DNA of 64,000 nucleotides from Mesobacillus subterraneus. GTDB lineage: Bacteria; Bacillota; Bacilli; Bacillales; Cytobacillaceae. The DNA lies in the NCBI RefSeq assembly GCF_020524355.2, contig NZ_CP129019.1, positions 1,984,001 through 2,048,000 on the forward strand. Reading direction: 5' to 3'. Under the pieces are notes generated by a model, which ran no database searches, was not told where the DNA came from, and saw only the letters and a list, made by a program, of their open reading frames with translations. A program made the translations under genes and the position numbers. Shown here piece by piece: positions 37,389 to 38,221 of this stretch. Position 1 is the stretch's first letter. The number at the start of each line of letters is the position of its first letter.

Positions 37389-37603
37389 TGCATTCCCTCC
37401 AAATTAAATACTAGATATTATGACCAGTTACTAATTTAATTGTAACACATTTTCTGAATTTTAACTAAATTGAAGTCTCCTTTTTAATGAAATAGGAAAT
37501 TAGGCGTTAAGAGTTGCCCATTCGATACAAAATCTCCATAAATGGTATAATGAGTTTTCAGCAAAACAATATATACTGAAGAAAATACATAAGGAGGTGC
37601 ACC

Positions 37604-38125
37604 TTGAAAAAACTAGTATTTTTAATGATGTTATTAATGATAGGAGCTTTCCTAGGCGGCTGTTCTGAAGACAAATCCGAATCAAAAGGCCTTTCCCTGC
37701 CTGATGAAAACGGTGAGGAAATATCCTTTGAAAATATGGAAAAGCCTGCGCTGGTATTCTTTTTTACAGGAGTTGGTTGAGACTTCTGTAAATCGCAGCT
37801 GGTCGAGCTGCAGAACCGAAAAGATTTATTCAGCCAGTTTCCAGGAAACATCTACGCCGTTAGCGCATCCTCTGTAAAGGAACATAAAGCGATGAAAGAA
37901 GAGTTGGGACTTGATTATCCAGTCATTTCTGATGAGAAACTGACATTGATCAAGAAAACAAACATGTTGGATCCTGAAGCCCCAATAGCAGTAAGAGGCT
38001 TCGCTGTTCTTAATAAAGACGGCACAGTTCTTCATTCCCAGGAAATCGATACATTCGGCATCGAAGCGGAAGGAATCATACCTTACGCAACAGATATCGC
38101 GAATGGTGAGAAACCAACCGAATAA
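37604..38125 (+). CDS. Candidate selenoprotein: redoxin-family lipoprotein with UxxC active site
   Basis: A thioredoxin-fold AhpC/TSA-like lipoprotein of 173 residues if UGA is read as selenocysteine. TTG at 37604 follows AAGGAGGTG. The lipobox AFLGGC places the lipidated Cys at residue 20, so the enzyme sits on the outer face of the membrane. The catalytic region reads FFFTGVG-(TGA)-DFCKSQLVELQ: the TGA (37778-37780, codon 59) occupies the first position of CxxC, and Cys62 is the second. The rest of the fold is intact, including the cis-Pro region PIAVRGFAVLNKDGTV, and a terminator follows the TAA. A SECIS-like hairpin lies just after the TGA. The alternative is a Cys or Trp codon changed by mutation or error. 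The selA/B/C/D genes would lie outside this window. Confidence 0.7.
37784..37815 (+). promoter_or_regulatory. Candidate bacterial SECIS element
   Basis: Just after the TGA the message can fold into a lower stem UUCUG/CAGAA, a 5'-side bulge of about 7 nt, an upper stem CAGCU/AGCUG (or GCAGCU/AGCUGC) and the 5-nt loop GGUCG at 37801-37805. The loop begins 21 nt after the UGA. Known bacterial SECIS elements need a small apical loop starting with G about 16-37 nt after the UGA; the E. coli fdhF element presents GGUC at nearly this distance. The fold was drawn by hand. Confidence 0.6.
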
Positions 38126-38131
38126 AAGCGA

Positions 38132-38166
38132 AAGAACCACCTTTTGTAGAGGTGGTTCTTCTTTTT
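38132..38166 (+). terminator. Terminator of the redoxin gene
   Basis: The stem AAGAACCACC/GGTGGTTCTT with a 9-nt loop, followed by CTTTTTG. It lies after the distal TAA, which supports translation of the whole frame. Confidence 0.85.
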
Positions 38167-38221
38167 GTTCATTCTGGATACCTATATCAAGTAAAGTTCC
38201 AACAACCAAAGCCTCTATGCA

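Follow-up and report, generated by a model that had tools for sequence, protein, structure and literature searches.

Gene organization at the locus

We analyzed a 64,000-nucleotide stretch of Mesobacillus subterraneus DNA (hereafter the window; contig NZ_CP129019.1, positions 1,984,001 to 2,048,000) that carries, at its positions 37604-38125, a gene interrupted in frame by TGA. The gene is a single reading frame with a TTG start, 173 codons and a TAA terminator (38123-38125). Its sole in-frame stop is the TGA at codon 59 (37778-37780), and under translation table 11 the same frame becomes a 58-residue stub plus a 77-residue piece. An earlier reading made from the letters alone (the sequence-only reading) had described one frame broken only at this codon, together with a TTG start, a lipobox and a terminator, and had proposed a probable lipid-anchored selenoprotein with a UxxC motif (U, selenocysteine) and a hairpin of the SECIS (selenocysteine insertion sequence) kind. 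The frame is confirmed here, all three signals were seen (LGGC ending at Cys20; hairpin at 38132-38160 with a T run), and the proposal as a whole is supported by the conservation of the TGA, by the hairpin and by the sel genes of the host. We consider, with a probability of about 0.87, that the gene encodes a peroxiredoxin-like lipoprotein whose TGA59 is likely decoded as selenocysteine (Sec) by means of the hairpin, and that the product, predicted to be lipid-anchored outside the cell, would reduce peroxides or oxidized thiols through Sec59-x-x-Cys62. The features of the locus, with the evidence for each in brackets, are as follows (bSECIS, bacterial SECIS).

37522..37551, + strand: promoter-like site TCGATA-18-TATAAT, with TG before the -10 (consensus scan, 10/12)
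37591..37599, + strand: ribosome-binding site AAGGAGGTG (sequence; near-identical in relatives)
37604..38125, + strand: gene for an AhpC/TSA-fold lipoprotein of 173 residues, codon 59 TGA predicted to be Sec, stop TAA (frame, Pfam, relatives)
37604..37660, + strand: predicted signal peptide of the lipoprotein type, residues 1-19 (sequence; conserved lipobox and hydrophobic stretch)
37661..37663, + strand: lipobox Cys20 (LGGC), predicted lipid anchor (invariant in 24/24 aligned proteins)
37778..37780, + strand: TGA, predicted Sec59, first position of UxxC (frame; TGA kept in relatives)
37787..37789, + strand: Cys62, second position of UxxC (invariant)
37795..37800, + strand: bSECIS 5' arm GCAGCT (covariation, shuffle test, RNAalifold)
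37801..37805, + strand: bSECIS apical loop GGTCG, 20 nt after the TGA (sequence and relatives)
37806..37811, + strand: bSECIS 3' arm AGCTGC (covariation, shuffle test, RNAalifold)
37994..37996, + strand: Arg131 of the RG[FY] motif (invariant; aligns with an Arg of solved peroxiredoxins in three alignments)
38132..38170, + strand: intrinsic terminator-like hairpin (38132-38160, 13 pairs) plus T run (sequence scan)

Of 67 proteins examined, 66 have a Cys somewhere between residues 13 and 32 (the exception was locus L090). From its signal peptide and lipobox, the protein is predicted to be exported, acylated and held on the outer face of the membrane.

Conservation of the TGA codon

We surveyed 193 genomes of the same GTDB family, counting matches at E <=1e-8, and 101 of them matched the protein. 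All the survey rows listed contain TGA, except one (G070) that is a C-terminal piece located after the site. Seventy loci were drawn from this survey, comprising all 43 of the close branch (branch A) and 27 others, and TGA occupied the position of residue 59 in 68 of the 68 that were of the lipoprotein type. Branch A (47-94% identity) displayed a slightly variable motif, FFFTGxxUD[FY]C, and the second branch (branch B, 25 loci, about 30% identity) the motif FFxTxYTUxxC. The remaining two were a redoxin-chemoreceptor fusion with UxxC (L097) and a PrxQ-like protein whose TGA falls in a TxxU motif (L096). Within Mesobacillus, 18 of the 20 other genomes matched and all 18 copies (L024-L041) carry TGA at the site; the closest named protein, with 94% identity, is that of M. 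selenatarsenatis SF-1. When these 70 loci were pooled with 69 named loci taken from genome contigs (the same gene may be present in both sets), reading of the 139 at the DNA level showed TGA at the UxxC site in 138, the other one, L096, having TGA at another redoxin site. TAA, TAG and TGG were found at the site in none of the 139.

In a wider survey of 397 genomes of the order (matches at E <=1e-7), at least 138 genomes matched and 40 rows were read at the DNA level. The 15 loci chosen from rows with TGA all proved to be lipoprotein-type UxxC proteins with TGA at the site. Of the 24 rows without a stop, 18 were RGxWCPxC redoxins and six AhpC-type peroxiredoxins, and none of these 24 (among the matches listed) was a lipoprotein with Cys at the site. 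A further row (G063, locus L233) matched only after the site; TGA is present there, and the frame is lost upstream of it. The RGxWCPxC redoxins had TGC or TGT at the aligned site in 18 of 18 cases and no signal peptide. This agrees with the sequence-only reading, in which the TGA was taken as the first position of a CxxC-type motif aligned with the first Cys of FYRGxWCPFC-type redoxins, and the alignment of homologues suggested there gave TGA in the lipoprotein relatives and Cys in the RGxWCPxC redoxins. Judging from these alignments, Sec/Cys exchange appears to exist between subfamilies and not within the lipoprotein branch as sampled.

Both lipoprotein branches were observed together in some Mesobacillus (M. 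selenatarsenatis SF-1, locus L147, and genomes G071, G072, G077 and G078), and the genome of the window has branch A only (E 1e-8).

A conserved hairpin after the TGA and selection on the frame

The window hairpin consists of six of six paired arm positions and a GGUCG loop, with 20 nt between the UGA and the loop. The sequence-only reading had placed it at 21 nt; the hairpin stands, and 21 is the position of the first base of the loop. The published bSECIS model (PMC13188914) specifies a loop of 3-9 nt, a stem of 4-16 bp, G in the first two loop positions, a spacing of 16-37 nt and a minimum free energy (MFE) of at most -7.5, and the window hairpin falls within these limits (loop 5, stem 6, GG, 20 nt, MFE -11.2), which answers the call of the sequence-only reading for a bSECIS prediction.

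Comparison with relatives pointed in the same direction. The wobble base of Gln65 pairs with the first base of Leu69, and among 83 distinct sequences this pair was G-C in 51, A-U in 26 and G-U in six, with no case of A-C; all these base changes are synonymous and compensatory. In a set of 36 sequences, 99.1% of the cells were paired as compared to 95.6% in shuffles, none of 500 shuffles being as high, and controls in which the pairing was slid along the alignment reached at most 37.5%. RNAalifold recovered the same six pairs. Moreover, synonymous differences per codon averaged about 0.5 in 41 close-branch genes and fell to 0.04 in codons 63-69, the lowest value of 163 seven-codon windows. As far as the sequences go, the hairpin appears to be beyond chance, and it is the conservation that is decisive for this and not the single sequence taken alone. 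Purifying selection acts on both sides of the TGA, with a median dN/dS of 0.125 before it and 0.061 after it (54 usable of 820 pairs, the pairs not being independent).

Selenocysteine machinery of the host

The sequence-only reading had proposed a search for the sel genes, and in the host genome (4.79 Mb, single contig) it was successful for the Sec tRNA (tRNA-Sec), selB and selD, while selA was present in two overlapping frames. The tRNA-Sec scored 56.3 bits (cut-off 47, a value also exceeded by 5 of 14 control genomes) and was called SeC, anticodon tca, by ARAGORN; selB (364 bits) is uninterrupted, and selD (392 bits) lies at C1:1843978-1844904 on the - strand (locus L019). Among the 20 other Mesobacillus genomes, 18 carry selA without interruption, and the two with in-frame stops are less complete (87% and 66%). 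Since tRNA-Sec, selB and selD are present and selA is mostly uninterrupted in the genus, the lineage very likely decodes Sec, and insertion at codon 59 would depend on SelB. At the family level, selB was found in 99 of the 101 genomes bearing the lipoprotein gene versus 71 of the 92 others (Fisher p 6.7e-6, kinship ignored; 3 of the 23 family genomes lacking selB were identified by elimination).

SelD was itself observed to contain an in-frame TGA (KAG-U-GCK), which is followed by a strong hairpin (-16.7 kcal/mol).

Fold and family placement

The read-through protein matched the Pfam domains AhpC-TSA (PF00578, 69.9 bits, cut-off 26) and Redoxin (PF08534, 44.3 bits). In the fold model a helix starts at residue 60, and UxxC occupies the thioredoxin active-site position; residues 62-69 are among the most conserved, and the frame runs ungapped through the TGA. 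Structural ranks and sequence place the protein nearer peroxiredoxins than ResA. Below the NCBIfam cut-offs, it showed similarity to SelL-related NF040769 (25.9/120 bits) and ResA NF002854 (18.8/170 bits), and the commonest weak matches in 44 aligned members were SelL-related, PRK09437 thiol peroxidase and AhpC models; the similarity to the SelL-related redox proteins was seen in 44/44 of them at E 0.01, below the curated cut-off.

The TxxC of peroxiredoxins corresponds to the CxxC of thioredoxins. The peroxiredoxin (Prx) motif PxxxTxxC/U is absent from the lipoprotein, in which an invariant Thr55 lies four, and not three, residues before Sec59. In three alignments, the peroxidatic Cys of AhpE and PrxQ/Bcp, which do have such a motif, aligned with Cys62, and the Ser/Thr three residues before it with Sec59. 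The RGxWCPxC redoxins of the same order are homologous to the lipoprotein (about 26-34% identity) and have Cys aligned to Sec59, but those read differ from it in lacking a signal peptide or lipobox, in having Cys for Sec and in their C-terminal part.

Table 1 of PMC13188914, which by that paper's count covers 119 families and subfamilies, lists as predicted the Prx-like thiol:disulfide oxidoreductase selenoproteins (PF00578, UxxC/UxxU), which share the AhpC-TSA domain and UxxC with our protein, and also a Redoxin family protein (PF08534, UxxC) that shares the Redoxin domain and UxxC. WP_010940744.1 and HEU0032618.1 are given by that paper as representatives. These comparisons are by domain and motif only, and by the same measure our protein differs from the PF00578 class in being predicted to be lipid-anchored, in belonging to Bacillales and in that no Cys form was seen in the lipoprotein branch. 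In that table no row names a lipid-anchored Bacillales redoxin or chemoreceptor, and a search of the open literature gave no title on a Bacillales lipoprotein family among the matches listed. By sequence, the protein would fit the Prx-like UxxC selenoprotein class as a separate, apparently Sec-only branch predicted to be extracytoplasmic.

Alternative explanations

Several observations weigh against our interpretation. In this assembly selA lies in two overlapping frames (C1:1845480-1846866), and the strain as assembled might not make Sec-tRNA; the split could stem from misassembly or from a true mutation, with loss of Sec synthesis in the strain. Two of the 101 genomes bearing the lipoprotein gene had no selB match (one is 88% complete and the other is in 720 contigs). 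The energy of the window hairpin is ordinary (MFE -11.2, z -0.96 versus dinucleotide shuffles, with 32 of 200 shuffles as good). Two-sided changes occurred in only one of its six pairs, and the numbers of such pairs (1) and of pair types (3) were not above those of shuffles; 3 of 83 relatives fold more weakly than -7.5, and in 4 of the 83 the base of the stem is mismatched. No model of NCBIfam release 20.0 reached its cut-off on the protein, and no neighbour common to all genera was found at the 69 named loci, among the matches listed. Finally, a profile search of 5.8 billion proteins returned 160 proteins, and among the 120 listed the full-length or nearly full-length ones (24 of 24) have Trp at the site. 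These 24 (P0002-P0025) are the weakest link in the argument: because all come from short contigs (663-1709 bases), we infer that their Trp is probably a reading of TGA under genetic code 4 by gene callers. The sequence-only reading had named Trp in close relatives as evidence against a selenoprotein, and on this point Trp was found in those database proteins and TGG in none of the loci read at the DNA level.

The same search bears on whether the TGA could be an ordinary stop, giving a 58-residue lipopeptide and a separate C-terminal protein begun at a downstream Met, or marking a decaying gene. TGA is a standard stop, and the remaining 96 of the 120 listed are fragments 88-135 residues long that all lack the active-site motif; the five of them that were read begin at an internal Met after the TGA. 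Nevertheless, the ungapped frame, the high conservation of residues 62-69 and the low dN/dS downstream (0.061) argue for a continuous product; neither half alone would appear to make a complete fold, and neither TAA nor TAG ever replaces the TGA (138 of 139 loci have it at this site and the other has TGA elsewhere). We therefore regard an ordinary stop as very unlikely. Decoding of the TGA as Trp, either by code 4 or by near-cognate readthrough, would account for the 24 proteins above, but these derive from contigs of at most 1709 bases and no TGG was present in the DNA copies read. In addition, the Cys three residues on, the Cys that 18 of 18 RGxWCPxC redoxins have there, the sel genes and the hairpin all fit Sec, and eight translation-factor matches in the same genome had no in-frame TGA; a Trp codon seems to us just as improbable as a stop. 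The least probable case, which we judge close to negligible, is a sequencing error, or a Cys or Trp codon that mutated in this one strain. The disrupted selA and the further stops that the sequence-only reading had seen in the window would suit it, and that reading had warned that TGG or TGT is one base away, but the TGA recurs in all 18 of the Mesobacillus genomes that matched, and lipoprotein-type copies from numerous assemblies and many other genera have it too, which in practice refutes an error.

Possible function and gene neighbourhood

For the predicted selenoprotein, we envisage a cycle in which the Sec59 selenolate would attack the substrate (a hydroperoxide, or a disulfide or persulfide), Cys62 would resolve the oxidized Sec by forming a selenenyl sulfide with it, and the enzyme would be reduced again by a CcdA/ResA-type thiol relay outside the cytoplasm. 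No neighbour being common to all genera, the assignment of function rests on fold and motif and not on an operon; clustering of the neighbours at the 69 named loci showed that those which recur are confined to groups of related loci. A selenoprotein acting as a thiol:disulfide or persulfide reductase (ResA/TlpA-like, or handling sulfane sulfur) instead of as a peroxidase is a serious possibility, to which we give somewhat less than an even chance. UxxC is a thioredoxin-type dyad, the PxxxTxxC motif is absent, and Neobacillus neighbours would suit such an activity. Against this, those neighbourhoods are genus-specific, the AhpC-TSA score (69.9 bits) contrasts with that for ResA (18.8/170), the structural ranks are nearer peroxiredoxins and the Prx-type Arg is invariant. 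Because this Arg is kept, we lean, on sequence grounds, to a peroxidase that would be regenerated by thiols.

In Neobacillus, the gene was observed near CcdA-like, ResA-like and CcmH proteins (L121), or, in L119, L120 and L123, near rhodanese proteins, a metal-sensitive repressor family protein and a pyridine-nucleotide-disulfide oxidoreductase that looks CoA-disulfide-reductase-like. These neighbourhoods hint at an extracytoplasmic thiol or sulfane-sulfur metabolism. The names CcdA, ResA-like and CoA-disulfide-reductase-like are what we take these neighbours to be from Pfam domains and general knowledge. A TlpA fragment beside the gene in L121, considered as a second truncated selenoprotein, was discarded, as it translates as an ordinary CxxC ResA-like protein.

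If our interpretation is correct, gene callers, by truncating the gene at the UGA, have caused a widespread selenoprotein family of Bacillales to be overlooked, and the annotation of many genomes is to be corrected. It would also mean that a selenol redox enzyme exists on the outside of a Gram-positive membrane, and would provide a natural Sec-only thioredoxin-fold family in which to ask why Cys cannot replace Sec.

A second candidate selenoprotein in the same genome

A covariance model of the hairpin, searched against the genomes of the genus, found a second likely selenoprotein gene in the genome of the window (C1:2329585-2330961, - strand; L187:1186-2562). It joins a redoxin with the motif FLRGTW-U-PNC to a methyl-accepting chemotaxis protein (MCP) signalling domain (AhpC-TSA 108.9 bits, MCPsignal 89.3 bits), and has a SECIS-type hairpin at the same spacing as in the lipoprotein gene. 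The fusion was present in 12 of the 193 family genomes (E <=1e-60), with TGA in all 12 rows (two of them partial), and the TGA site itself was read in five genomes. From these data the product is a predicted seleno-redoxin chemoreceptor, for which Table 1 in PMC13188914 has no row. A third match of the model in the same genome (C1:1551277-1551308, E 0.05) offered no sensible frame; its energy was -0.7, and it was taken as chance.

Taking both genes together, one may speculate that Bacillales have an overlooked Se-dependent redox layer. Sec-only UxxC redoxins, lipid-anchored at the outer face of the membrane and with no Cys version surviving, and a cytoplasmic seleno-redoxin chemoreceptor with the same kind of SECIS would jointly remove, and let the cell swim by, oxidants or reactive sulfur/selenium species, which would help to explain why the Sec machinery is retained. 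We hold this wider scheme to be rather unlikely as it stands.

Expression signals and additional observations

The start codon, as picked by a script and at the same position throughout, is TTG in the window gene and in the three relatives closest to it; L027 has GTG, and the others mostly have ATG. Promoter-like sites are weak evidence alone, three having been found in the region versus 2.0 expected in shuffles; the TATAAT region is mostly kept across 17 Mesobacillus upstream regions. An opposite-strand open reading frame overlapping the gene (37558-37851) is presumably a shadow of the coding strand and was set aside.

Other proteins with TGA at redoxin sites were seen in the course of the surveys. 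L096 (G014:C13), the PrxQ-like protein mentioned above, has TGA in DFTPG-U-IKE, as in a TxxU-type seleno-peroxiredoxin, in a relative. Outside Bacillales, a contig from a Chloroflexi metagenome-assembled genome (L167) contains the redoxin piece VLHRSAVW-U-PYCKTQLVE, a UxxC redoxin of another kind that has the same QLVE stretch as is found where the hairpin lies. Lastly, Trp at a TGA site in proteins from short contigs could serve more generally to flag hidden selenoproteins in protein sets derived from metagenomes.
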